From: Xanthomarina sp. F2636L
GTDB lineage: Bacteria > Bacteroidota > Bacteroidia > Flavobacteriales > Flavobacteriaceae
Length of the DNA stretch: 64,000 bases
Direction of reading: 5' to 3'
Assembly: GCF_026410195.1 (NCBI RefSeq)
Contig: NZ_JAPMLM010000068.1
Span: 253,001-317,000, forward strand
A program made the position numbers and the translations under genes. Every line of letters begins with the position of its first letter. Position 1 is the first letter of the stretch. Shown here one piece after another: positions 7,096-20,401 of the stretch. The notes under the pieces were generated by a model. It saw only the letters and a program-made list of their open reading frames with translations. It did not search any database and was not told where the DNA came from.

Positions 7096-9423
7096 TTATT
7101 CGGGTTTGTTCGCTAGAAGTTCGTTTTGATAAATATTGATTAAATCTGAAACATCAATACTGTAGATTTGAGGGTTAGACAAATTACTCTTGGACTTAAT
7201 ACCTGCCTTGTATTCATCATTTAAAAATGTAATGTAATTTTTTAATAGTAGCCTATTTTTAAAAATAATGGATTTACATTTTTCATCTCTAAAAATAGCA
7301 TTACATATAGCTTGAAAACTTCTTTCGGGTTTATTATTCACATTTATTGCAGACAACTCCTGAAGCGTGTTATTAAACCATTCTTGAGCCTCTTGGTTTA
7401 AAAAAATACTACTTTTATATTGAATAGTCTTTTTATCGGTTACTAAATCATTGTTTTCCGACTCATTGCTTTCAGATTTTTCATTCTCTGGTTTTTCTTT
7501 AATAAAAAATTGATGTGTTTCTAATAGCTTATTCTTTGCTAAAATCTTCTCATAAACTTTTTCATTTGAAATTTTATTAACCTCTTTTTCAAGGATGTCA
7601 TATAAGTAAGTGTGTTCAAAATTCCGTTTATTAATTGATTGGATAGTATTAGATATAAACTCGACTGCTTGATGTTCTAAATAAGGTGTATGATTAAGAC
7701 TGATAAATTTAATTAAGTTATGGTATGCCTTAAAATTATTCTCAATTTCACCTTTAACTATATTTAGTTTATTGTCATTTAATCCTAATATTTGGTCGGC
7801 TGTTAAATCATCAAAATAAATAGTTGCCGTGTTCAATAATCTTTCAATTGAATTTATTAGAATATAGGCATAACTACCTGCATTATTTTTTAGATTATCA
7901 TCATAAGAAAAGAAGTCTGAAAACTTCTGTTTATATACAGCTCTTAAATCATATGTATGTTTTATTTCATCTCTTAAGGTTTGTTTATTATAAATCCTTG
8001 ATAAGTCAACTTTCCTCTTTTTAAGCTCTTCTAAATAAGGCATTTTCTGTGAAGCAGGGTTTATAACAACACTAGAAGCTTTAGAAAACTTCATAAAGAA
8101 AAGAGTATATCCAGTTAAGATGTATAAATTTATTTTTTTGTCAAATATCATGTAGGTTGATTTTATTGGCCGGTTATCATCCTTAATGAATTCAAAAAGT
8201 TCTTTTAAAAAATCTGGATTTTTATTTGAATATTGTTGGAAATATTTATTGTTAACATGTAAATTTTGAAACTCTTCAGGGGTGGAATTTTTATCAAATT
8301 TGAATGAGACACTTGAAATTGAATCTTGTTTCTCTTGAGGTATATTGGTTAAATTTTCATCCTTAACAAGATCTATAAGCGTACCAACTATTGAGTCTCC
8401 TAAATATGGATCTTCAAGAAACTCATCTTCTTTACTTATGATTTTAAAAGAATACTTATTTAATTTAGGCTCAAGGAATTCTATTTTTCTACGAAGTGTA
8501 ACTTTATATTTTTCTGTATTACCAATAAACTCACTGTAATTATAATTTCTTTTTAAAACTCTATTCTTTTTAGGGTCTGAAAAATATTTAATTTCTGATT
8601 TTAAAAAATCTAACTCATTTGCTTCGGGAATCTCTTTAAAATAATTTGACATTCTAATTGAGAAATGAGCTATGTAAACATCACTTGGACAATCAAAATA
8701 ATAAATATTATCTTCTTTAGATTGTGAATACAAATCATCGATAATTTTTAATATTTGACTTTTAATTATATCTATATTATCTTCATATTTCAATTCAATT
8801 TCGTGATATGCTTCTGCACTACCACAGTTTCGTGCTTCTCGAAAGATATCCACTTTTATCTTTTCCAGCTCTTTGAATAGATATAATAATTTGGAATATA
8901 CATCTAGGTTTTCAAAATCAGCAGGCTCTTTTACATCATCACCCTTTTTGATAAATGTTGTTTTTTTAGATTCTAAAAAAGAGATTAATTCGTTGGCATG
9001 ATAATTTATAAAGAAATATAAAAAATTCTTTTGGGCATTTTTCTTTTTTAAAATATCCACACTATCACCCATAAAAGGGTCATGTGGTAAAATGACATCT
9101 AAATATTGAAAATACTCGGATGAATTAACTTTACTTTCTAATACATCCTTAATATTAATATTGAAGAGATCTAGCCATTCTTGAATATTATCAACTCCAA
9201 AATTTGGGATAAAATCAAGCCTATTTATTTCATGTACTAAATATTCTAAATAGTTGTCGTCAGAACCACCAGATTTACTTAATTTTAATAAAACATCTGA
9301 TTTAATTTGAATTATACATTCTTGCAAATGCCCTCGAACTGAAAGAGGCGAACGGGTTTTAAGTATGTTATCATCAGACAGCAACTCACAAAACTTCTCA
9401 AAACCAATATAATTTTCACTCAT
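7096..9423 (-). CDS. Large mobile-element protein of unknown function
   Basis: A 775-aa protein I do not recognise. It is soluble-looking, with no signal peptide, rich in Lys, Asn, Asp and Ile, and has long predicted helices and an acidic low-complexity stretch near residues 655-675 (NEKSESNESENND). No nuclease, helicase or P-loop motif is visible. It lies between the integrase and the HTH pair on the same strand, a place where Bacteroidota islands often carry a conserved large hypothetical gene. A role in element maintenance or host takeover is possible but unsupported. Confidence 0.75.
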   Translation of the reverse strand: MSENYIGFEKFCELLSDDNILKTRSPLSVRGHLQECIIQIKSDVLLKLSKSGGSDDNYLEYLVHEINRLDFIPNFGVDNIQEWLDLFNINIKDVLESKVNSSEYFQYLDVILPHDPFMGDSVDILKKKNAQKNFLYFFINYHANELISFLESKKTTFIKKGDDVKEPADFENLDVYSKLLYLFKELEKIKVDIFREARNCGSAEAYHEIELKYEDNIDIIKSQILKIIDDLYSQSKEDNIYYFDCPSDVYIAHFSIRMSNYFKEIPEANELDFLKSEIKYFSDPKKNRVLKRNYNYSEFIGNTEKYKVTLRRKIEFLEPKLNKYSFKIISKEDEFLEDPYLGDSIVGTLIDLVKDENLTNIPQEKQDSISSVSFKFDKNSTPEEFQNLHVNNKYFQQYSNKNPDFLKELFEFIKDDNRPIKSTYMIFDKKINLYILTGYTLFFMKFSKASSVVINPASQKMPYLEELKKRKVDLSRIYNKQTLRDEIKHTYDLRAVYKQKFSDFFSYDDNLKNNAGSYAYILINSIERLLNTATIYFDDLTADQILGLNDNKLNIVKGEIENNFKAYHNLIKFISLNHTPYLEHQAVEFISNTIQSINKRNFEHTYLYDILEKEVNKISNEKVYEKILAKNKLLETHQFFIKEKPENEKSESNESENNDLVTDKKTIQYKSSIFLNQEAQEWFNNTLQELSAINVNNKPERSFQAICNAIFRDEKCKSIIFKNRLLLKNYITFLNDEYKAGIKSKSNLSNPQIYSIDVSDLINIYQNELLANKPE

Positions 9424-9523
9424 AGGATTAGAATATAAAACTTAAATTTATTAAACCTTATCCTACTTTTCTACTTTCATATTCATTTTTTCCAAATTAT
9501 CTTCTTCGTTCTGCTTTAACCAA

Positions 9524-10831
9524 TTAAACATTAAAGAAACCTCCCTTTATAATATGCGCTGCTCTTTCCTGGTTTTTAATACGGATATATTTATAAAACT
9601 CTTTTTCTGTAGTATGACCACTAAACAGCATGATATCAAAGACACTCATACCTGCCTTATACTTATTAGTACAAAAACTACGTCTTGCCGTGTGTGATTT
9701 AATGAGGTCATATTTAGAAATCATTTCGGTTTTATATTCACCTCCTTTTGTGTATTCGCATTTTACAAGCTCATCCCATTCCAACATTTGCCCAACCTGC
9801 TTGATATTTTCATTTAAGTCTTGTTCTTGAATTTTTTTAGGTGGATGGCCATTGTATCTACTATCCATTATATCCTGCATTTCCTTGGTTATAGGGCAAT
9901 GTACTATTCTACTATATTTACGATTTTTCTTTTGGCGTATTTTAAAACACTTGAAGCCATCAATATCAACAATATCTTCATTCTTCAGTCCATTGTAATC
10001 GCTTATGCGTTGCCCTGTATAACACCCAAACAAAAAGACATCCCTGGCATGTTCAAGCTCTGGATATTTTGATAAATCGTGTTCATACATTTTTTTGATT
10101 TCATCATCAGTTAAATAAATCTCCGTGGTTGTTTCTTTCTTTACCTTGAAATCATCACTTTTAAATCGTTGGTTACTTGTGTAACCTTCAATAAGTGCAT
10201 AGTTTAAGAATGTCTTTATAGTTTTAAGATGTTTGCCAATGGTGTTAAGCGAATAGTCATTAGCTTCCATAAACCTATTAAACTTATTGTAAAAGGACAT
10301 ATCTATAAACTCAAACATTAAGGTTTGATTATAGTGCTTTTGATATTCCTCTAAACGCTTTTTAGTTTGCTTGTAGGACCTAATTGTTATAATAGATATT
10401 TCTCCTTCTTTTATTTCAATAAACTCGTCTATGACATCAAAAAAGGTCATGCCTTTTTTATTTTTAACCTTATGAGGAGTAATCTTCTTTGTTTTGATAT
10501 CTAATGCGTATTTTAAAAGGTGTTTAGGGACGATATCATGCTCTTTGGATAACTCATTATACTTTTTATTTATGAACTTCTCTAAATCGCTTAAATGACC
10601 GTTAACCTCATCTTTATTAGAAATGCCAGCTTTGTTTTTTATGCGTTGTTTATTGAAATCCCAATCATCAAAACAGCTCTTATAACCGCTTGAATACTTG
10701 AATTTATTACTTCCGTAAGTAAAGTGCAGATAAATTATACTTTGTTTCTTCTTGTTTTTCAGTAAGTTTGCATTCGAGTCTTTAAATGCAAATCTCACAG
10801 TCCCTTTAGACCTCTCTATTATAGTACTCAT
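9524..10831 (-). CDS. Tyrosine recombinase / integrase of the island
   Basis: Site-specific recombinase that would integrate and excise the island. After an N-terminal arm-type DNA-binding domain and a SAM-like core-binding domain (about residues 100-200) comes the catalytic domain, with Arg in CYTGQRISDYNGL, Lys in the FKIRQKKNRKY hairpin, HTARR, SGHTTEKEF and the nucleophile Tyr in YKYIRI. Two starts are possible: an upstream ATG at 10882 adds a 17-residue leader with two near repeats of HPI/HPF, while the ATG at 10831 begins directly at the arm domain (MSTIIERSKGTVRF). I prefer 10831. It is the last gene before the putative attachment site. Confidence 0.9.
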   Translation of the reverse strand: MSTIIERSKGTVRFAFKDSNANLLKNKKKQSIIYLHFTYGSNKFKYSSGYKSCFDDWDFNKQRIKNKAGISNKDEVNGHLSDLEKFINKKYNELSKEHDIVPKHLLKYALDIKTKKITPHKVKNKKGMTFFDVIDEFIEIKEGEISIITIRSYKQTKKRLEEYQKHYNQTLMFEFIDMSFYNKFNRFMEANDYSLNTIGKHLKTIKTFLNYALIEGYTSNQRFKSDDFKVKKETTTEIYLTDDEIKKMYEHDLSKYPELEHARDVFLFGCYTGQRISDYNGLKNEDIVDIDGFKCFKIRQKKNRKYSRIVHCPITKEMQDIMDSRYNGHPPKKIQEQDLNENIKQVGQMLEWDELVKCEYTKGGEYKTEMISKYDLIKSHTARRSFCTNKYKAGMSVFDIMLFSGHTTEKEFYKYIRIKNQERAAHIIKGGFFNV

Positions 10832-11010
10832 ACGGCTTTGTTTACAATAAAGATAAGCAAAAGGGTGCAAAATAGGGTGCAATTGCGCCCTTATTTATTA
10901 ACAATTCACTTTACTAAAACAACATCACAAAACACGATAAACCCTTATGATTAGTGACGTCAACCATGTATTGAGTAAAAATAGAAAGAAACGACAAAGT
11001 ATAATATAGT

Positions 11011-11026
11011 ACTGGAGGCACCACCA
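11011..11026 (+). repeat. Candidate attachment site: tRNA 3'-end remnant
   Basis: The bases ACTGGAGGCACCACCA read like the end of a tRNA: ACTGG (T-stem 3' strand), AGGCACC (acceptor strand), a discriminator A and an encoded CCA. The rest of a tRNA is absent upstream: there is no T-loop or matching 5' strand. It lies on the integrase side of the island, directly before a strong terminator, as expected for an att copy left when an element inserts into a tRNA 3' end. The intact tRNA (5' strand GGTGCCT) would lie at the other end, outside the window. The remaining bases of 10883-11290 hold no gene that I can see. Confidence 0.4.
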
Positions 11027-11028
11027 CT

Positions 11029-11057
11029 AAAAACCCGAACAAATGTTCGGGTTTTTT
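11029..11057 (+). terminator. Rho-independent terminator
   Basis: Stem ACCCGAAC (11033-11040) and GTTCGGGT (11045-11052), loop AAAT, extended by A/T pairs and followed by a T run. There is no complete gene just upstream on the plus strand, so it is probably the old terminator of the tRNA whose 3' end remains at 11011-11026. Confidence 0.75.
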
Positions 11058-11290
11058 GGTTTTATACATTTTACTTAATACCATACCTCTTCTGTATTAA
11101 TATAAATGAAGCACAAGTACTTAATTAGTTTTCTTAACCTTCTTCATTTTTCCATTTTTATTAAATCATATCTCACAATTGACATAAATCATTATTTTTT
11201 ATAAAAATTACATGTAATTTTATAGCTAAAACCCTTAGCTGTAAAACACATTTATGGAGATAACAGTTAGGGGCTTGAAAACTTCTATTT

Positions 11291-11788
11291 ATGTCTATAT
11301 TTAAAAAGGTAATGATAATTATCTTACTTGGTCTACTAGGTCTTGTTCTATATATTTTACTGTTTTACAATCCGTGTAACTACAGTCATTTTAAATTTAA
11401 AAGTCCCGACAACTATAACCTTTTAATTGCAAACGAAGGAAGCCATTTTAAAGATTCTGTGGTCCGTGTACTTATACAGCATTACCACTCAAAACCTGTA
11501 AGCATTAAAACAATCCCCTTGAGCTTCTTACCTGAAACAGACGTTAAAGATCAGGATGCCATACTAATTATTCATTCCTGGTACACTTGGAAACCCCCTC
11601 TAGAAGTAGAAAAATTCATTCACAAGCATCGTGATTGCTTAAACAACATCGTGATGTTAGGCACCTCACACCAAGGAAACCTCAAAATGGAAGAGCTAGA
11701 CGCCATTACCGGTCCATCAAAAATGACTGATGTAAAAAGCTACACATCAAAAATCATTGATAAACTCACCCCATTACTTAATAATTGA
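11291..11788 (+). CDS. Membrane-anchored protein with a flavodoxin-like fold (hypothetical)
   Basis: A 165-aa protein. Residues 5-27 form one hydrophobic segment (KKVMIIILLGLLGLVLYILLF), likely a membrane anchor. The rest alternates strands and helices like a flavodoxin: YNLLIANEGSHFKDSVVRVL, DAILIIHSWYTWKPPLEVEKF, NIVMLGTSHQG. The first loop lacks the classic T/S-rich FMN phosphate loop, so FMN binding is uncertain. It stands alone between the island end and the signalling locus. I do not recognise a named family. Confidence 0.7.
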   Translation: MSIFKKVMIIILLGLLGLVLYILLFYNPCNYSHFKFKSPDNYNLLIANEGSHFKDSVVRVLIQHYHSKPVSIKTIPLSFLPETDVKDQDAILIIHSWYTWKPPLEVEKFIHKHRDCLNNIVMLGTSHQGNLKMEELDAITGPSKMTDVKSYTSKIIDKLTPLLNN

Positions 11789-12269
11789 CATCAATTGAAG
11801 CATGTAAATTTTTCATATATAATGATTCTCAAAACTAATCTTCATTTACTATTGAAAGTTAATAATAACGTTGATATCATCTCACCTATTAATGTCTAAA
11901 TAATATGGCTAAATGCAGTTGCTAAACACATTTGATTATAAATACGTTAAATAAGGCTCTATTTAACCTGTTATCATTTTCTTAAACTTTGACCTGTAAA
12001 TATGACAATGTTAATCATTGTGTATAATCTATCGTAAATTCGATACTAAATATTTTTCGCCAAAAACTGCTATTATTTTTTTAACACTATTTAACCCAAA
12101 TTAAAAAGCAACTCTTATAAGAGTTGCTTTTAATCCGGCCTACTTTTACATAAACCTTCTCGCTATTAATCAATCACTACTAATTATTTATGTTAATATT
12201 TAATGCAACTACAATATTACGGTAGCATCTAACTTTATTAACCTTTGTCTTTTATTTTTTATTTTATTA
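11789..12269. other. Intergenic region, no gene seen
   Basis: AT-rich spacer of about 480 bases between the anchored protein and the minus-strand STAS-like genes. It holds a short inverted repeat, ACAATG-TTAAT-CATTGT (12005-12021), of unknown role, and the terminator at 12104-12131. I see no open frame or tRNA-like fold. Confidence 0.5.
12104..12131 (-). terminator. Rho-independent terminator of the STAS-like operon
   Basis: A perfect inverted repeat with AAAAGCAACTCTT and AAGAGTTGCTTTT arms and a very short loop. Read on the minus strand it is followed by further T-rich sequence. It lies about 140 bases past the stop of the gene at 12270-12713 and probably ends that transcript. Confidence 0.7.
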
Positions 12270-12713
12270 TTAATAAACCATACCACATAAATTTGAAAAG
12301 TTCTTATTATTTTGGTTTATACAGAATTCTTTTGCCGACTCCATATCACTAAAAACACCAAAGGGTGTAATTGGATCGTATATTCTTTTATATGAGCCTA
12401 TTAGTATTCTTATTCCTATGGAGTTTTGTATATAGGCTTCAGAAATTCTTAACGCGACTAATGATGGTGTTTTAGCAAATAAATTAGCTGCTGCTGAAGA
12501 AAAAGTACCTCGAGAACCTCTTACATCAATTATAAACGACCTAGCTTTACCGTTACATAATTTAGTAATGGCTTTTATATAAAGTTTAACCCTTTCTGAA
12601 CTCAATTTAAAGTTAGCACTATCATTGGAAAGTTGACAATAAAGAATATCATTATCATCTATCCAAAATTTTGCGTGTTCAATCTCAATGACATTTTCCA
12701 AATTAATTATCAT
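12270..12713 (-). CDS. STAS/SpoIIAA-like small protein, paralogue 1
   Basis: A 147-aa protein from a flavobacterial family that I believe databases list as DUF7793 (not checked). It opens with KFWIDDNDILYCQL, has a central FIIDVRGSRGTF strand-turn where SpoIIAA-like proteins carry their switch residue, and ends with SEAYIQNSI, LIGSYKRIYDPITPFGVF and AKEFC. The same landmarks recur in the upstream neighbour, so the two are tandem paralogues; the genes overlap by 11 bases. It lies downstream of a sigma54 promoter and a sigma54 activator gene. A phosphorylation-switched partner role, as for anti-sigma antagonists, is inference. Confidence 0.78.
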   Translation of the reverse strand: MIINLENVIEIEHAKFWIDDNDILYCQLSNDSANFKLSSERVKLYIKAITKLCNGKARSFIIDVRGSRGTFSSAAANLFAKTPSLVALRISEAYIQNSIGIRILIGSYKRIYDPITPFGVFSDMESAKEFCINQNNKNFSNLCGMVY

Positions 12714-13125
12714 TTCTTACAGCATTAAAAAACATGTTGTTTCTATTACAAAATTCTATAGCCATTTTTTTACCATTAAATATAGTAATTGGCAAAATAG
12801 AGTTACCAAACAGAGTATATGATGAAAGTAAAAATTTTAAGTAACAGTTACCTACTAAATATGCTTCTGACAATACATTGTTTTTAATTTCAGAACTATT
12901 ATTTATAAGTTTAAACAACTTTATCGTAGGCGAACTCCTCAATTCTTCAAAATTGAATAAGATTGGTTTATAACTACCATCAGACAAAACAGAGATAGCT
13001 TCAATAAAAGTTTTTTCTAAATCTACTTTAGAATAATTTTCATCGAAATCTCTATATATTTTACAATAAATTATATTTTGGTCTACCCAAAATTTAATAT
13101 TGTCCGTCAGCATTTCGTTTTTCAT
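12703..13125 (-). CDS. STAS/SpoIIAA-like small protein, paralogue 2
   Basis: A 140-aa protein related to its neighbour: KFWVDQNIIYCKI, SEAYLVGN, LLSSYTLFGNSILPITIF and AIEFCNRNN align with the matching parts of the protein at 12270-12713. The central strand-turn differs (LFNFEELRSSPT in place of IDVRGSRGTF), so the likely switch site has diverged and the pair may have split roles. The ATG lies about 13 bases after the predicted start of transcription from the sigma54 promoter at 13150-13165. It is the first gene of a two-gene operon. Confidence 0.75.
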   Translation of the reverse strand: MKNEMLTDNIKFWVDQNIIYCKIYRDFDENYSKVDLEKTFIEAISVLSDGSYKPILFNFEELRSSPTIKLFKLINNSSEIKNNVLSEAYLVGNCYLKFLLSSYTLFGNSILPITIFNGKKMAIEFCNRNNMFFNAVRNDN

Positions 13126-13149
13126 TCGTATAACTTTAAAGAACTAAAG

Positions 13150-13165
13150 TCAAATGGAGTGCCAA
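13150..13165 (-). promoter_or_regulatory. Sigma54 (-24/-12) promoter of the STAS-like operon
   Basis: On the minus strand the sequence reads TTGGCAC, five bases, then TTGAC. This matches TTGGCACRNNNNTTGCW at all seven -24 positions and at TTG of the -12 element, with A in place of the conserved C. Transcription would start near 13139, just before the ATG at 13125. The gene immediately upstream encodes a sigma54 activator, which supports the call. Confidence 0.7.
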
Positions 13166-13253
13166 AAATTATTTATGACTGAATTTAAAACATAAAACAC
13201 TAATAATTAATGATTTATTTGTTTTGAATAATTTTTAATGAAATTTCAGACTA

Positions 13254-13265
13254 ACGGTATACCGT
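13254..13265. promoter_or_regulatory. Candidate upstream activator site 1
   Basis: Perfect 12-base palindrome ACGGTATACCGT about 115 bases upstream of the predicted sigma54 start site, where enhancer-binding proteins usually bind. A near copy lies at 13293-13304. Confidence 0.55.
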
Positions 13266-13292
13266 GTATTTCTATGCGTAAAAATGATAATC

Positions 13293-13304
13293 ACGGATTA
13301 CCGT
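13293..13304. promoter_or_regulatory. Candidate upstream activator site 2
   Basis: ACGG-ATTA-CCGT repeats the arms of the palindrome at 13254-13265, with centres 39 bases apart (close to four helical turns). It lies just past the stop codon of the sigma54 activator gene and about 155 bases upstream of the predicted start site. Confidence 0.5.
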
Positions 13305-13307
13305 TAC

Positions 13308-16300
13308 TTATTTAGGTTTAGAAATACCGAGTTTTGTCATTTTATCACGTAAGGTACTTGGCTTTAAATCTAGTAAAATAGATGCGCCATGAGGCCCACT
13401 TATTTTCCAATTACACTGCTCTAATACTTGAAGAATATGATTACGCTGTGCCTTATCTAACGATAAATCTCTATTATTAATTGGTTTTGTATTTTGTGTT
13501 GAAGATTCAAAACCTGGAATTAATAGCGTATTATTGGTTGACAATATAGAAGCTCTTTCTATTAAATTTTCGAGTTCTCTAATATTTCCAGGCCACTTGT
13601 ACGCTTTAAGTTTACTCATAGATTCGTCTGTTATAAACTTAATACTTTTTCCATAGGCTTTATTAAACTTATCTACAAAATGCTCTACTAGTAAAGGTAT
13701 ATCGTCTATTCGTTTTCTTAATGGCGGCACCTCTATTGGAAACACATTCAATCGGAAATATAAGTCTTCTCTAAATCGCTTATTATCAACCTCTTCTTTT
13801 AGGTTTCGGTTAGTTGCGGCAATAACTCTAACATCCAATTTTTTTAATCCAGATGTACCACCAACAACCTCAATTTCTCCCTCTTGTAAAAATCTTAATA
13901 TTTTGGGTTGCATATCTAGTGGCAACTCTCCAATTTCATCTAAAAATAAGGTACCTCCATCTGCAAGTTCAAATTTTCCAATTTTATCAGTAATGGCTCC
14001 TGTAAAAGACCCTTTTTTATGTCCAAACAATTCACTCTCTATAAGTTCTCTAGGAATAGCAGAACAATTAACTTTAATTAATGGTTTATTGTTTCGTAAA
14101 CTCGTATTATGAATAGCTCTTGCTAATAATTCTTTACCAGTACCAGATTCTCCTAATAATAGTACAGTAGCTGTTGTTGGTGCCACTTTTTCTACCTCAC
14201 TTAGTAAATTACTAAATTCGGCACTTCCATACACCATTTCTTCGTAGTTAAACACTAAGTCTAACTCATTTCTAAGGTAAACGTTTTCTTGCTCCAATTG
14301 ATTTCGCAATACATTCAGCTCCTTATTAACTTGTTTAAGTTGTTCGTTTGCTTTCGCTATTTTATTTTCGGCTATTTTACGGTCAGTTATATCTTGAATA
14401 GTACCAATCATTTTTACAGGATTACCTTCACTATCCAATATTAATTTACCTAATCCATGCACCCATTTTTCTTTATCATCAACATGATTTACAATTCGGT
14501 ATTCCCTATTAAACTTTTCATGCTTTATTAATATATTATTTTCGAAATAATTAAGCATTTGTTCTCTTTCATCAGGATGAATGATACTAACCCAGCCATT
14601 AAGATCCCTTATATAGGACTTATTTATATCCATTATTTTATCCAAAATATCAGAACTTTCCCACATCATGGTCTGAATGTCTAGAGAATATGATCCAATA
14701 TTCCCAACTATTTGAGATTGTTTTAAATTATACTCACTATCAATAAGCTTCATTTCAACTACCTTACGCTCAGTAATATCTTGAATGGTACCGAAAAAAT
14801 TAGCAACTTGCCCGTTAACATAAGTTACTTCACCTAAACCATGAATCCATTTTAATTCCTTATTATTTTTGGTTAGTATTCTGTATTCTAAATCAAATTT
14901 CTCTCCTGTTTTTATACTTCTTTCTAGCATCTCTTGATTGATAGCAGAGTCGTCTGGATGTCTAATTTCTCTCCAAATTTCAGGGGATAGCTCACTATCT
15001 AAATCAACTCCTACAATGTCTTTAAAAGCAGATGAGGCTTCAAGTATTTGAGTATTTATATCAAAATTATAACTGCCTATTTTTGCTAATTTTTGTGCCA
15101 CTAAAAGTGATTTTTCACTTTCTTTTAATTTTATTTCTGCATTCCTACGTTGTGTAATGTCTTGTACTATGGAAAAATTTGCAATTTTCTCACCTTCTTC
15201 ATTAAAAATACTTGAAATTGAAATACGTACAGGAAAATATTTTCCATTTTTATGCATATAAACAATTTCATAGTCTCTTTCATTTTTGTCTTGAATTAAG
15301 AGTTCATAACGCTCATCATTTTCTTTTTTTAATTCAGGTGACCAAAATGGATATGGCCGCTTAACACCAAGTAATTCTTTTTCAGTAAAACCTGTCATTT
15401 CACAAAAGGAAGGGTTTACTCTAATTATTTCTGAGTTCAAATTTATTACAAGTAAACCTTCTCCCATTGATTTTAAAAGACCTGCAGAAAATTCTTTTTC
15501 CTTTTTTACTTCTCTAATATTTTTTTTAGTTTCAGTGACATCTCTACAAATAGCAAGTATTCTTCCATCTTTTTGCATTTTTGCTGATATTTCTGCTACC
15601 AATATCGATTTGTCTTTTCGAATGATCTCTCTATCAAAAATTAATGGTTTCTCCTTAAGCAGTTCTTTATATCTTTCTGAATTTATAACAAAATCGCCTA
15701 CAACTAAATCTTTTATATTCAATTTTTGAAATTCTTTTTTAGTATATCCTAAATTTATATATGAAGATTTATTAAAGCTATGTATTGTTCCGTCTAATGA
15801 ATAAGACATTATCGCATCACTAGCTTGATTTATTAAGGCTTTATAAGATTCATCTTTCTTTTTAATTTCTGCAACAGTTCTAGATTTTTCTATGGCTATA
15901 CGCACTAAGTTAACGGCAAAATTAAGCTCATTAATTTCATCCAATGAGGGTGTAGATATGGACTTACTATAAATTGCAAAAGTCCCTAAAACAATCTTGT
16001 TTTTTGAAAAAATGGGCAAAGACCAACAGGATTTTAAACCGTATTCTAATGCAATGTCTTTATAGTCTTTCCATAATTTATCTTTACTAATATCTGAAAC
16101 AATAACAGGTTTTTTAATAAATGCGGCAGTACCACAGGATCCAGTATTTTTACCAATGGGAACTCGTTTTATAGCTAAATTATATGATTTAGGCATAGAT
16201 GGCGCAGACTCTAGATTTAGATGTATTCCATCTTCATCAAGCAAACTAATAGAACCAAAATAATTTGGATGAACAGATTCGTAATTTAAAAGCAAGCGAT

Positions 16301-16889
16301 CAAAAATATTACCTAAAGATGTGTTAACAGCTAATAAATCTAAGATTTCGTTTTTATGAATTAATAATTGTTCGGCTTTTTTACGTTCTGAAATTTCATT
16401 TTCAAGATCTAAATTTTTTTGCTCTAACTTACTAATAAGACGCTTGCTATAAAGCTTTAAAACTTCTTGTTCTGTAAATTCTGATTTTTTTATAGGTTTT
16501 GTCTTAGATACTTCATTTTTAAAAATATCTTGAATCACCTGTAGGATTTTATCTTGATCTGTAGGCTTTCTTAAAAAATGAACTGCACCAAGTTTTATAG
16601 CAAAATCTTCATCCAGTTTTTCAGTATAAGTAGAGGTGTAAAAAACGAAAGGGATCTCTTTAAATAATTTTTCATTTTTACAAGCTTGGCAAAACATATA
16701 GCCATCCATTACTGGCATTAAAATATCTGAAATAATAAGATCTACTTGTTTGTTTTCCTGAAGTTTTTCAAGCCCTTCGCTCCCATTATTAGCTTCAATA
16801 ACCAAATAACCTGCTTCTTCAAGAATTACTCGAAGCAAGTATAAGTTTTCAAACGTATCATCTACAATTAAAATAGTCTTATTATTCAT
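13308..16889 (-). CDS. Sigma54-dependent activator with REC-GAF-4xPAS sensory region
   Basis: A 1193-aa cytoplasmic regulator. Order: receiver (1-125, phosphoacceptor Asp55 in SDILMPVMDG), coiled linker, GAF (about 185-335), four PAS domains (about 345-855, the last two being similar PAS_3 types ending in QDIT-RK), a short coiled coil, AAA+ sigma54-interaction domain (about 895-1120; Walker A GESGTGKE, GSFTGA loop, Walker B GGTLFLDEIGE) and a Fis-type helix-turn-helix (about 1140-1193). GSFTGA replaces the commoner GAFTGA. Such proteins bind upstream sites and drive RNA polymerase-sigma54. It starts 3 bases after the lone receiver gene and probably activates the promoter at 13150-13165. The size and number of sensory domains are unusual. 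Confidence 0.93.
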   Translation of the reverse strand: MNNKTILIVDDTFENLYLLRVILEEAGYLVIEANNGSEGLEKLQENKQVDLIISDILMPVMDGYMFCQACKNEKLFKEIPFVFYTSTYTEKLDEDFAIKLGAVHFLRKPTDQDKILQVIQDIFKNEVSKTKPIKKSEFTEQEVLKLYSKRLISKLEQKNLDLENEISERKKAEQLLIHKNEILDLLAVNTSLGNIFDRLLLNYESVHPNYFGSISLLDEDGIHLNLESAPSMPKSYNLAIKRVPIGKNTGSCGTAAFIKKPVIVSDISKDKLWKDYKDIALEYGLKSCWSLPIFSKNKIVLGTFAIYSKSISTPSLDEINELNFAVNLVRIAIEKSRTVAEIKKKDESYKALINQASDAIMSYSLDGTIHSFNKSSYINLGYTKKEFQKLNIKDLVVGDFVINSERYKELLKEKPLIFDREIIRKDKSILVAEISAKMQKDGRILAICRDVTETKKNIREVKKEKEFSAGLLKSMGEGLLVINLNSEIIRVNPSFCEMTGFTEKELLGVKRPYPFWSPELKKENDERYELLIQDKNERDYEIVYMHKNGKYFPVRISISSIFNEEGEKIANFSIVQDITQRRNAEIKLKESEKSLLVAQKLAKIGSYNFDINTQILEASSAFKDIVGVDLDSELSPEIWREIRHPDDSAINQEMLERSIKTGEKFDLEYRILTKNNKELKWIHGLGEVTYVNGQVANFFGTIQDITERKVVEMKLIDSEYNLKQSQIVGNIGSYSLDIQTMMWESSDILDKIMDINKSYIRDLNGWVSIIHPDEREQMLNYFENNILIKHEKFNREYRIVNHVDDKEKWVHGLGKLILDSEGNPVKMIGTIQDITDRKIAENKIAKANEQLKQVNKELNVLRNQLEQENVYLRNELDLVFNYEEMVYGSAEFSNLLSEVEKVAPTTATVLLLGESGTGKELLARAIHNTSLRNNKPLIKVNCSAIPRELIESELFGHKKGSFTGAITDKIGKFELADGGTLFLDEIGELPLDMQPKILRFLQEGEIEVVGGTSGLKKLDVRVIAATNRNLKEEVDNKRFREDLYFRLNVFPIEVPPLRKRIDDIPLLVEHFVDKFNKAYGKSIKFITDESMSKLKAYKWPGNIRELENLIERASILSTNNTLLIPGFESSTQNTKPINNRDLSLDKAQRNHILQVLEQCNWKISGPHGASILLDLKPSTLRDKMTKLGISKPK

Positions 16890-16892
16890 TTC

Positions 16893-17264
16893 TTATTTTG
16901 AATTGACAATATGCTTCATTTGGTTTACAAAAGTTTCTGGATTAATTGGTTTCTCCAAATAACCATCTGCACCTGCATCAAGTGCTTTTTCTTTATCTCC
17001 TCCCATAGCATACGAAGTTACCGCTATAATAGTTGTGTTTTTAGGCAGACCATTATGTCTTAATTTATTACATATTTCGTAACCATCCATATCTGGAAGT
17101 TGTATGTCTATTAAAATAATTTCAGGGTTGTTTTCATGAGCAAGCCTTAATCCATCTACCCCATTAAACGCTTCAATTACAGTGTAATTACTTTGTGTTA
17201 GCAAGTAAGACAACATATACATGTTTTGCTCATTATCCTCTATAATTAAAATAGTTGATTTCAT
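16893..17264 (-). CDS. Single-domain response regulator (CheY-like receiver)
   Basis: A 123-aa receiver with no output domain. The acidic pocket is IEDN (Glu9, Asp10), the phosphoacceptor is Asp53 in LIDIQLPDMDGYE, the switch Thr/Ser is in AVTSYA and the conserved Lys is in LEKP. It lies between the histidine kinase and the sigma54 activator on the same strand, 3 bases before the latter, so it is probably a phosphate relay or sink between the kinase and the activator receiver. It resembles DivK-type regulators. Confidence 0.92.
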   Translation of the reverse strand: MKSTILIIEDNEQNMYMLSYLLTQSNYTVIEAFNGVDGLRLAHENNPEIILIDIQLPDMDGYEICNKLRHNGLPKNTTIIAVTSYAMGGDKEKALDAGADGYLEKPINPETFVNQMKHIVNSK

Positions 17265-17344
17265 AATCTAATAAATATTTTATGACCTGATGTTTAAATA
17301 TACTACAATTCTTTTAACAATTTAAAATTTAGTTTTTTATTGAA

Positions 17345-20300
17345 CTATGTATTTTTAGAAGCCTTAATAGGAATTTTAAAAGTAAAGTTACTTCCTTCTC
17401 CTTTTTTACTTTTTACATGGATAGATCCCCCTAATTTTTCAATTATGTTTTTACAAATTGCCAATCCAAGACCTGTACCTTCATGATTTCTACTTAACCC
17501 GGCATCTATTTGAATAAAAGGCATAAATAATTTATTAAGATCCTTTTTACTAATCCCAATGCCTTGATCTATTACTTGTGTTATTAACAAACTATCCAAA
17601 ACATCTACTTTTACAGTAATGCCTCCTTTATTAGAGAATTTAATAGCATTGGATAGTAAATTAAGTAACACCTGCTCAACTCTACGCTCATCACTATTTA
17701 AAATAATTTCCATCTCAGATATTTCTGAGTTTATGACTAACCCTTTTTTAAGGGCTTGTGGTTTTAAAAAGTCAATAGTCTTTTCTAATGTGGATAAATA
17801 ATTAAACGGATAGAATGACACTTTTAATTTTCCTGCCTCAATTTTAGAAATATCCAAAACATCGTTAATTAAGCCTAATAAGTGCTGACTGCTATTTTTA
17901 ACCATAGACAGCTGCTTTTTCTGCTCCTCATTTAACGGGCCTGCATATTCTTTTAATAGAATTCCAGTAAAACCAATAATAGAGTTCATTGGTGTTCTTA
18001 ATTCATGAGACATAGTTGCTAAAAATGCGGACTTCATTAAATCTGCAGATTGTGCTTTTATTTTTTCTTTTTCTAATTCAGACGTTCTAAACTCTACTAA
18101 CTCTTCGAGATTATTTCTATATTTTTCTAATTCTGCTTCGGCATGTTTCTTTTCTGTTATATCTATAACAGTAATCATAATATGTTCTTCATTATTTAAA
18201 TCAAGTGCTTGTAATGAGATTAATATAAAAAGTTCTTTTTCATCTGGCATTTTGTAATTTAATTCAACATTTGATACATATCCTTTTTCACTAAACTCGC
18301 TCCATAATAAGGTTTCATTATCGAGATTTTTTTGATCATCAAGAGTGAATAAACCCATTTCTTCAGCAGTTTTCTCTAACATGTTTTCTCTTTTAATTCC
18401 AACAATGTTTGCCAATGCTTCGTTTACTTCAATAATCTTTTTTTCTTTATTAAGTATCGCTTTTCCAATAACATTAGATTTAAATGCTTTAGAAAATTTT
18501 TCTTCACTTTCTTTTATTGTTATTTCTGCTTTTTTACGTGCTGTAATATCTCTTACAACTCCAATTAGAAATTTATTTCCACTATCGTCTATAAATCGTG
18601 TTTTTTTGGTAGAAACAATTCGAGTTTCCATTCCTTCTAAAGTTATAGATTCTTCATTAATGTTTTCTACACCAGTTAACAACACCTGCTTATCAATACT
18701 AAAAAACATTTCCCGTTCATCAAAAGACACGTTTTCAGCTAGTGTTTTTCCAATTATTTCTGATCTTGAAAGGTTAAAAAAGTTGCAAAAAGAATCATTT
18801 ACTAGTAAAATACGGCTTTGTTCATCTTTTACAAATACTAGATCACCTATATTATTTAAAATATTATCAAGATATTTTTTACTTTTAATGATTTGCTCTT
18901 CGGCATTTTTTGATTCAGTGATATCTCTTATAGTTCCAATTAAAAAATTTTTACCGCTTTCATCTATGTACCTGTTTTTTTTGATTGAAATGATTCTTGT
19001 TTCTCCTCCTTTACCAATAAAACTAACTTCACTAACATTTTCAATCCCTTTTGAGATTACTTGACTATCAATTTTTAAATATCTTTCTCTTTCCTCAACC
19101 GGAGTATCTTCAGCGAAGGTTTTACCTAAGATCTCTTCTTTTGTACGATTAAATAATTTATAGAATGCGTCATTTGCAATAAGAAAATGGCTTTTATCAT
19201 CTTTTACAAATACTGGGTCCCCTATATTATTTATAATGTTTTCGAGATAGCTTTTATTTTTTATTAATTGATCTTCAGCCTTTTTGCGCTCTGTAATGTC
19301 TGTAAAAAATATTGTCAGTCCTTCTTTTGAAGGATATACTCTATTTTCAAACCATCTATCAATGGGTTCATAGTAAGTTTCAAAATATTGTTTTTCTTGA
19401 GTTTCTACTGCTTTATAATATGCTTTATAAAAAGGAAGACCTATACCTTCAGGAAATTCGGTCCAAACATGTTTACCTATTAAACTTTCTGGAGATTTTC
19501 CTAAAAATTCAGCTGCTTTAATATTTATATAAGTATAATGCCAATTGGTATCTAGCGCCACAAATCCATCTGAAATAAGATTTAAAGTAGTTTCAATTTG
19601 AGAAGTTAATTTTTTCTCTACCTGATTTTTCTCAGCTTTAAGATTAATATATTTTGTTCGATAATTAATAATAGAAAAAACATCTCGATTTTGGTTTGCA
19701 ATAAATGTGGCATTCGTTTCATTATTATCTAAATACTTTAAATAAACATATAGAATAATTGAAAATATAAGTGCTGAAAAAGACTTACCTATAATATGCC
19801 CAACCAAGGAAGAATTAAAATCGGGTGCACCAAATTTTAAAATAACATTAAAAGCAAAAGCATCAATAATTAAAACTGAAAGCAGAGAAATAAAAAGAAT
19901 ATAAAAGAACGGCAGTTTGCTATTTCTTGAAATCAAATATTGATATATAATAGCAAGTAAAATAAAATCAAAAAACAAGATAATGGTACCTGTTATAAAG
20001 TACTTATAATCTAAAATGAATATAGATTTTGCTTGATTATTTTCAATTAATCCAATAACACTTTCTTGCAAATAGGTAATACCAAATAAAGCAGATATCA
20101 AGAAGTTTGAAATTACAATCCCAATTATAAGAGCTCTTGCACTAGTAACTCCTTCTTTTATATAAATTAGTAAAACAGCAAATAAAACAGCTGAAAAAAT
20201 AATTATAGATCCTGGGTAAATGGTATACTTATCTAAAATTTCAAGGCTTATATAAGCATCAGAAAACACTAGAAGGTATTGTAAAGTTCCAAGTAGTATA

Positions 20301-20401
20301 TATAAAGGTGCCAAACCTAATTTAGATCTAAGCTTAAATAATAAGAGTATAGTTGAAGAAAAAAATAAAAACTCTGCAAATATGGTCGTATAGATATTCA
20401 T
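17345..20401 (-). CDS. Membrane PAS histidine kinase
   Basis: A 1018-aa sensor kinase. Residues 1-225 contain about seven hydrophobic segments, forming an N-terminal membrane sensor. Four PAS domains follow (about 265-375, 380-500, 505-625, 630-745). The second and third are near duplicates: both carry IGD(P/L)VFVKD, EEILGKT or SEIIGKT, and FLIG-(T/V)-(I/V)RDIT. A coiled coil leads to HisKA with MSHELRTPMNSIIGF (phosphorylated His) and an HATPase domain with LLNLLSNAIKFS, DQGIGI and GTGLGLAI. No receiver is fused. It is the first gene of the signalling run; the lone receiver starts 80 bases after its stop. Confidence 0.92.
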   Translation of the reverse strand: MNIYTTIFAEFLFFSSTILLLFKLRSKLGLAPLYILLGTLQYLLVFSDAYISLEILDKYTIYPGSIIIFSAVLFAVLLIYIKEGVTSARALIIGIVISNFLISALFGITYLQESVIGLIENNQAKSIFILDYKYFITGTIILFFDFILLAIIYQYLISRNSKLPFFYILFISLLSVLIIDAFAFNVILKFGAPDFNSSLVGHIIGKSFSALIFSIILYVYLKYLDNNETNATFIANQNRDVFSIINYRTKYINLKAEKNQVEKKLTSQIETTLNLISDGFVALDTNWHYTYINIKAAEFLGKSPESLIGKHVWTEFPEGIGLPFYKAYYKAVETQEKQYFETYYEPIDRWFENRVYPSKEGLTIFFTDITERKKAEDQLIKNKSYLENIINNIGDPVFVKDDKSHFLIANDAFYKLFNRTKEEILGKTFAEDTPVEERERYLKIDSQVISKGIENVSEVSFIGKGGETRIISIKKNRYIDESGKNFLIGTIRDITESKNAEEQIIKSKKYLDNILNNIGDLVFVKDEQSRILLVNDSFCNFFNLSRSEIIGKTLAENVSFDEREMFFSIDKQVLLTGVENINEESITLEGMETRIVSTKKTRFIDDSGNKFLIGVVRDITARKKAEITIKESEEKFSKAFKSNVIGKAILNKEKKIIEVNEALANIVGIKRENMLEKTAEEMGLFTLDDQKNLDNETLLWSEFSEKGYVSNVELNYKMPDEKELFILISLQALDLNNEEHIMITVIDITEKKHAEAELEKYRNNLEELVEFRTSELEKEKIKAQSADLMKSAFLATMSHELRTPMNSIIGFTGILLKEYAGPLNEEQKKQLSMVKNSSQHLLGLINDVLDISKIEAGKLKVSFYPFNYLSTLEKTIDFLKPQALKKGLVINSEISEMEIILNSDERRVEQVLLNLLSNAIKFSNKGGITVKVDVLDSLLITQVIDQGIGISKKDLNKLFMPFIQIDAGLSRNHEGTGLGLAICKNIIEKLGGSIHVKSKKGEGSNFTFKIPIKASKNT

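Follow-up and report, generated by a model that had tools for sequence, protein, structure and literature searches.

In Vibrio fischeri, a kinase relay formed by RscS and SypF leads to SypG, a sigma54-dependent response regulator that activates sypA, the first gene of the syp locus, which encodes a single-domain STAS protein, and SypE acts on SypA in the control of the same locus, as set out in parts of two reports (PMC4517449, PMC3843225). The title of a related study, Ray et al. 2013, names the sigma54-dependent SypG together with a syp enhancer (via PMC3843225). Here we describe a locus of similar outline in a 64,000-nucleotide stretch (hereafter the window) of the 3.37 Mb genome of Xanthomarina sp. 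F2636L, which its relatives place in the Flavobacteriaceae. The locus encodes a membrane histidine kinase, a lone receiver, a sigma54 activator or enhancer-binding protein (EBP) and two small proteins of the family DUF7793 (PF25056), A and B; an array composed of two near-palindromic sites and a putative -24/-12 promoter lies between the EBP gene and A. Comparison with related loci (numbered L, whether in relatives or in the same genome) indicates, with a probability that we put at roughly 85%, that kinase, EBP, array, promoter and A/B form a self-contained two-component/sigma54 circuit; this figure applies to the circuit and not to the mechanism of A and B. Across these loci, the kinase gene travels with EBPs that carry a receiver (REC) domain, the helix-turn-helix (HTH) end of the EBP travels with the array, and the array stands before A and B or their replacements.

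An earlier model-made reading of the window, based on its letters alone (the sequence-only reading), had placed a sigma54 promoter between the activator and the two small genes. A match, TTGGCACTCCATTTG, is indeed found there and is conserved together with two upstream sites. The distance from its first T to the ATG of A is 40 nt; given the -24/-12 geometry, the leader of A would measure about 13 nt. The sigma54 consensus has GG at -24 and GC at -12, 10 bp apart, and the textbook -12 box is TTGC; the box in the window reads TTGA, and in relatives it is mostly TTG followed by A, G or T. As a lone match, the promoter is within chance expectation (3 matches in the window versus 1.65 expected). 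It is its position, its conservation and the enhancer pair that take it beyond chance; a fortuitous match is possible for an isolated promoter and is ruled out by the array. The two near-palindromes, a feature absent from the sequence-only reading, are 39 bp apart, the proximal one being 101 bp upstream of the promoter TGGC, and from their conservation they very probably represent the enhancer of the EBP. Terminator hairpins were considered as another source of such palindromes, and against them stand the fixed spacing of 39-42 bp, the fixed distance to the promoter and the presence of a second array in L049.

We defined the array as two ACGGTATNCCGT sites 39-42 bp apart, followed, mostly after 99-105 bp, by a TTGGCAY-N5-TTG promoter. 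Inspected by eye, all 25 loci (the window and 24 relatives) have it between the EBP gene and the first of the small genes; an unlinking of the genes in relatives, which the sequence-only reading had named as one observation that would count against it, was looked for and did not emerge. A strict scan, tolerating up to two mismatches in each site and a single one in the promoter, recovered the array in the window and 23 of the 24 relatives and, over the 7.7-20.4 kb that each of those loci spans, detected no further array. The locus missed was L049, which has a more degenerate site and where two arrays are visible by eye. These lie at 7420-7600 and 9390-9570 of that locus, one before the gene of a VGIGT-type secreted protein and the other before A, B, a kinase and a receiver. 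Twelve scrambled-motif controls, run on 12 of the 24 relatives, returned 0 arrays each. Among 37 non-redundant arrays, the sites were spaced by 39-42 bp and the promoter followed at 90-113 bp (99-105 bp in 33/37); all 37 contain GGCA and end the -12 box in G, the box being TTG in 36 of them and TGG in the other. The limited tolerance of the scan itself accounts for part of this uniformity.

In the genome of the window itself, the double site, searched at a spacing of 39 bp and with no more than 2 mismatches, occurs at three places, namely the window, a second module (L072) and an rRNA-like sequence with 2 mismatches that we take to be 16S rRNA, and the reversed pattern occurs at 0 places. Both relevant double sites sit between an EBP gene and a DUF7793 gene. 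The exact pattern TTGGCAYN5TTG is found at 33 places in this genome, and of the 30 that were read only the same two, window and second module, carry the pair of sites. The pattern also precedes an htpG-like and a cold-shock-like gene (L091, L100; named by eye), in both cases without the enhancer pair.

Because the 24 relatives had been picked by a search with the B family, linkage within them is biased, and a search based on the EBP served as a check. The AAA+ and HTH part was compared with 198 genomes of the family (E value cut-off 1e-100, at most 10 candidates scored per genome), yielding 40 matches in 36 genomes. We fetched 30 of these with about 1.5 kb on each side, read two more, of 68% identity, elsewhere, and left out eight at 50-55%. 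At 60% or more AAA/HTH identity, the array was present in 21/21 fetched loci (window included) and DUF7793-like genes in 19/21; at 52-55% identity, neither the array nor a DUF7793-like gene was found within about 1.5 kb on either side (0/9 each). The two matches of 68% identity were the second copy in the same genome, L072, which has the array, and L044, a second copy in another genome (G124). In a tree of the EBPs, the rows without an array lie to one side of a branch supported at 100/99, which comes with a long-branch warning. Of the 39 array-clade rows whose HTH end is intact, 38 have KPSTLRD there and one has KASTLRD, and 0/9 array-less rows carry KPSTLRD; some rows represent one organism fetched twice, as for L050 and L133. 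In the loci read, array and EBP clade thus go together, as do array and HTH end; most simply, the EBP would bind the array. Paired upstream sites, of the kind expected for an EBP, are conserved with this clade. The proposal that the activator drives the promoter before A and B is likewise supported by this co-occurrence.

All five open reading frames (ORFs) of the block were recovered in a row on the minus strand at the coordinates that the sequence-only reading had given, with the domain content confirmed by Pfam and NCBIfam (Table 1). The kinase combines a VUPS membrane sensor (residues 16-221) and PAS units with HisKA and HATPase domains, and its conserved His, characteristic of two-component systems, lies in SHELRTP, the motif starting at 798; the receiver acceptor strands, IISDI and ILIDI, are intact and retain the receiver Asp. 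The kinase and receiver genes are separated by 80 bp and the receiver and EBP genes by 3 bp, and given these gaps the three look like one operon; the ORFs of A and B overlap by 11 bp. In the EBP, Pfam placed Response_reg at 6-119, GAF at 194-334, PAS, and Sigma54_activat at 888-1053, the last at 231.6 bits against a cut-off of 20.2, in keeping with the AAA+ domain of a sigma54 activator, and NCBIfam counted four PAS S-box stretches, so that the two agree with REC, GAF and four PAS domains ahead of AAA+ as first read. The motifs GESGTGKE, GSFTGA (an L1 variant) and LFLDE are in place. Such activators are expected to end in a Fis-type HTH; here the C-terminal HTH carries KPSTLRD and matches HTH_8 weakly (15.2 bits, under the cut-off of 22); the paralogue in the same genome exceeds the cut-off at 26.6 bits. 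The genome has a single RpoN gene and five strong EBP matches. Very large for its class, as the sequence-only reading put it, holds for the 1193-residue EBP against the three strong out-of-clade EBPs of the genome (frames of 392-443 amino acids, aa) but not within its own clade, where the sensory part is highly variable, frames range from 729 to 2184 aa and 1193 aa is mid-range; we therefore rejected the idea of an EBP of unusual size.

Table 1. Features of the signalling block and its surroundings; positions are those of the window.
Feature	Position	Strand	Basis or remark
Membrane sensor histidine kinase, 1018 aa	17345..20401	-	Pfam and motif reading
Lone receiver, 123 aa, Response_reg only	16893..17264	-	Pfam; ILIDI acceptor strand
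EBP, 1193 aa, REC-GAF-4xPAS-AAA+-HTH	13308..16889	-	Pfam, NCBIfam, motifs
Distal candidate enhancer site, near-palindrome ACGGTAATCCGT	13293..13304	-	Array comparison
Proximal candidate enhancer site, near-palindrome ACGGTATACCGT	13254..13265	-	Array comparison
Candidate sigma54 -24/-12 promoter TTGGCACTCCATTTG	13151..13165	-	Between EBP and A; TTGGCAC-N5-TTG
A, 140 aa, DUF7793 paralogue, predicted STAS/SpoIIAA fold	12703..13125	-	ORF, Pfam, model
B, 147 aa, DUF7793 paralogue, predicted STAS fold	12270..12713	-	ORF, Pfam, model
Tyrosine recombinase (Phage_integrase, SAM-like domain)	9524..10882	-	Pfam; near the end of the A/B operon

The pairing of the kinase with the receiver-bearing activator is supported by the relatives. 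Of their EBPs, 16/24 bear a REC domain, and a kinase gene lies directly upstream in 16 of these 16 loci (in pieces in L065), with a lone receiver between kinase and EBP in 11; for the REC-less EBPs, a directly upstream kinase gene was found in 0/8. Among the latter, L064 was counted as non-adjacent, as a hybrid kinase gene lies about 2.7 kb upstream with three ORFs in between, and L071, which offers just 1.1 kb of upstream sequence, has no kinase within it. A Fisher test of REC against adjacent kinase, leaving out L064 and also L049, the kinase of which was identified afterwards, gave 15/0/0/7 (p 5.9e-6).

Downstream of the array, B is the constant member. A and B occur together in 19/24 relatives, B alone in 4, and L065 retains a B fragment and no intact small ORF. 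In one of the 19 (L050, 9560-10402; the same gene is held by L133), A and B are fused in one ORF, which suggests that the two act together. For the 24 relatives, genes after B were named from their similarity to proteins of the module. Homologues of the PAS kinase follow in 14/24 (several truncated or in pieces), a receiver in 14/24, a type IX secretion system (T9SS)-type secreted protein in 8/24 (one being a 201-aa piece) and a VGIGT-type protein in 8/24; L049 has one more, which precedes A and has an array to itself. We use the label T9SS because NCBIfam tail models were over the cut-off in the two proteins scanned (L072, L053); the Pfam T9SS tail model was under its cut-off in the L072 protein. 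At least one such module gene follows B in 20/24 relatives, so that A and B are the first output and rarely the sole one, and no further module gene follows in 4/24 (L057, L061, L062, L070), the same arrangement as in the window. The claim that the small proteins are the output thus stands insofar as they are the first genes after the promoter, but they make up the whole output just in the window and these four relatives. In L155, a more distant locus, homologues of the PAS kinase and receiver come directly after the array, without A or B. A and B thus often come first among the products, and the kinase and receiver of the module may have been there before them.

The second module, L072, lies about 82 kb away in the same genome and comprises array, B, PAS kinase, receiver, T9SS protein and VGIGT protein. 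Immediately upstream of the EBP gene of this module lies a gene whose product has an S74 endosialidase-chaperone domain. In the window, the position of the tyrosine recombinase corresponds to where most relatives carry further module genes, and an insertion may have cut the operon short. We also considered a decayed kinase after B in the window and rejected it, as tblastn detected no kinase remnant in 10801-12300.

A and B are true paralogues, as proposed from the sequence alone: the alignments of the two families match at an hhalign probability of 99.9 with 23% identity. The alignments cover the window plus 22 (B) and 18 (A) of the 24 relatives, the fused L050 and L065 being left out and, for A, also the four loci without A. 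In Pfam, B scores over the 26-bit cut-off of DUF7793 (34.0 bits) and A just under it (23.6). AlphaFold2 models built from 19 aligned sequences for A and 23 for B reached a mean confidence (predicted local distance difference test, pLDDT) of 90.4 and 89.3, respectively. In Foldseek searches of the PDB, the best match of A was SpoIIAA and that of B a Dyadobacter STAS protein, both at an E value of 2.0e-4, with modest template modelling (TM) scores by query length of 0.47 (A) and 0.57 (B). The top matches included the SpoIIAA-SpoIIAB complex, DUF3478 and the Dyadobacter STAS protein. These models predict a STAS/SpoIIAA fold for both proteins, in line with the STAS-like character assigned to them before. 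Beyond the module, core DUF7793 genes adjoin a gene like the PAS-AraC (HTH_18) regulator of L017 in 19/19 of the best-scoring loci read (L017-L035), so an exclusive association of DUF7793 with EBPs is false. A different DUF7793-like protein is encoded at 9556-9948 of L075 beside an argS-like gene (named by eye), with no EBP or array. Two kinds of PAS-bearing regulator thus adjoin DUF7793, which is the lead for the more speculative reading of the family given below.

Based on how such protein families work, the circuit would operate as follows. The VUPS-PAS kinase would sense a signal and phosphorylate the REC domain of the EBP, the lone receiver or both; the EBP, possibly tuned further by ligands of its GAF and PAS domains, would bind the two sites as an oligomer and remodel RNA polymerase-sigma54. 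A and B would then be made, in most relatives alongside a second PAS kinase, a receiver and/or secreted surface proteins. What the pair does next is a weaker inference: tentatively, A and B may pair with each other and serve as a STAS-type regulatory partner for those signalling proteins of the module that contain PAS domains, in feedback or gating. A broader and more speculative version, which we regard as rather doubtful, is that DUF7793 constitutes a new class of STAS-fold partners binding PAS-containing regulators, such that an A-B heterodimer made when the EBP fires would return to the PAS domains of EBP or kinase and set a threshold or end the response, the two modules of the genome being coupled via their shared enhancer sequence.

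Several observations weigh against the circuit as proposed. The EBPs of L072 and the window have near-identical HTH ends and sites, which may allow cross-talk, so the circuit is possibly less self-contained than its layout implies. L044 fails the strict scan, its array being visible by eye with a weaker promoter; the base after TTG is G, T or A in 34/37 arrays and the usual C in 3/37; and, taken singly, the site shows no enrichment in the genome (29 places versus 38 for the reversed pattern). L143 and L144 have the array without a DUF7793 gene, and in L154, a wider stretch of L143, no ORF of at least 70 aa follows the array on that strand before a gene on the opposite strand. For A and B themselves, no stand-alone partner kinase of the RsbW/SpoIIAB type was found in the genome (a divergent one is possible), nor was a partner phosphatase, with no SpoIIE-type protein among the neighbours scanned with Pfam. 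At 5190-5520 of L154, array and promoter are followed some 120-130 nt on by a strong hairpin and a T-run; a lost output and a small RNA are the alternatives that we propose for this array.

Other explanations differ mainly in what they make of A and B. The two could form a classical SpoIIAA/RsbV-like partner switch, in which a Ser/Thr kinase and a phosphatase control B, and B titrates an anti-activator or anti-sigma factor elsewhere. The PDB matches of both models include SpoIIAA, RsbV and RsbS; for A they also include SiaC. Such a switch needs a phosphorylatable Ser at the start of helix 2; position 72 of B, which we take to be the SpoIIAA phospho-site position, is Ser or Thr in 20/23 B proteins, but it is Leu or Glu in the other three, and A has no conserved Ser there. 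All 8 matches to HATPase_c_2 (PF13581) in the genome, including that in the PAS kinase of L072, fall in frames of at least 360 aa, and the neighbours scanned yielded no phosphatase of the required type. By sequence, classical partner switching thus fails two of its marks, an invariant phospho-Ser and a stand-alone RsbW-like kinase, and we consider it unlikely here. It is similarly improbable that A and B are a by-product and the real output of the clade is the downstream set of PAS kinase, receiver and secreted proteins, with the window copy as a decayed remnant. The A/B-less order of L155, the frequency of kinase and receiver genes after B, some of the kinases being in pieces, and the completeness of the second copy in the same genome all point that way; however, A and B are intact together with all array parts in the window and the four relatives in which nothing else of the module follows, and the search for a kinase remnant in the window came back empty. 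Finally, the array is known from sequence alone, and the near-palindromes might be bound by another regulator, the EBP acting elsewhere and the block being merely co-inherited. This we judge very unlikely, as array and EBP clade, down to the recognition helix, go together in the loci read and the array remains with the EBP even where DUF7793 genes are absent (L143, L144).

With the self-contained circuit as our preferred reading, a single locus gives a clade of sigma54 activators in Flavobacteria its probable DNA site, promoter and target genes, and since these stand together the circuit is directly testable. DUF7793 is thereby linked to signalling and given a probable fold, and one branch of it is tied to secreted surface proteins in marine bacteria. 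The -24/-12 pattern of this group of Bacteroidota, TTGGCAY-N5-TTG with C rarely next, may score low in promoter scans built on the textbook consensus. Literature searches returned no publication on DUF7793 and likewise none on VUPS with histidine kinase, and no description of this module among the papers listed on sigma54 with Flavobacteria/Bacteroidetes, T9SS, STAS or PAS; one report presents sigma54 predictions in Flavobacteriia, with nothing on this module in the parts of it consulted (PMC12316311).

Compared with known systems, the locus combines familiar elements in a distinct setting. Its AAA+ domain with Walker A, L1 loop and Walker B is that of NtrC/FhlA/NifA-type EBPs, and the C-terminal HTH, weakly matched by HTH_8, would be a further common trait, whereas the variable PAS-rich sensory part, GSFTGA in place of GAFTGA and a site pair of its own (ACGGTATNCCGT) set the window clade apart. 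A and B share a predicted fold with SpoIIAA, RsbV and RsbS, but show 8-17% identity in the STAS matches listed, belong to a family of their own, lack an invariant Ser and have no dedicated kinase that we could find in their own genome. With core DUF7793 they share the Pfam family and a position beside a PAS-containing transcription regulator; that regulator is a sigma54 EBP for the A/B subfamily and a PAS-AraC HTH_18 protein for the core. Neither the syp polysaccharide genes nor a SypE-like Ser kinase/phosphatase appeared in the Pfam-scanned genes, the 24 relatives having been checked by module similarity and by eye. The sequence-only reading knew of no described system with this make-up, which was too strong, as the V. 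fischeri syp system shares the outline in the parts of the reports consulted (PMC4517449, PMC3843225): a relay of kinases, a response regulator that depends on sigma54 and has an enhancer, and a STAS gene in first place, a likeness of plan. It is the closest described system, alike in outline and not the same family by the tests made; where syp has one STAS protein followed by polysaccharide genes, the block in the window has two DUF7793 proteins under a PAS/GAF-rich EBP, and its relatives carry PAS kinases, receivers and T9SS or VGIGT proteins.

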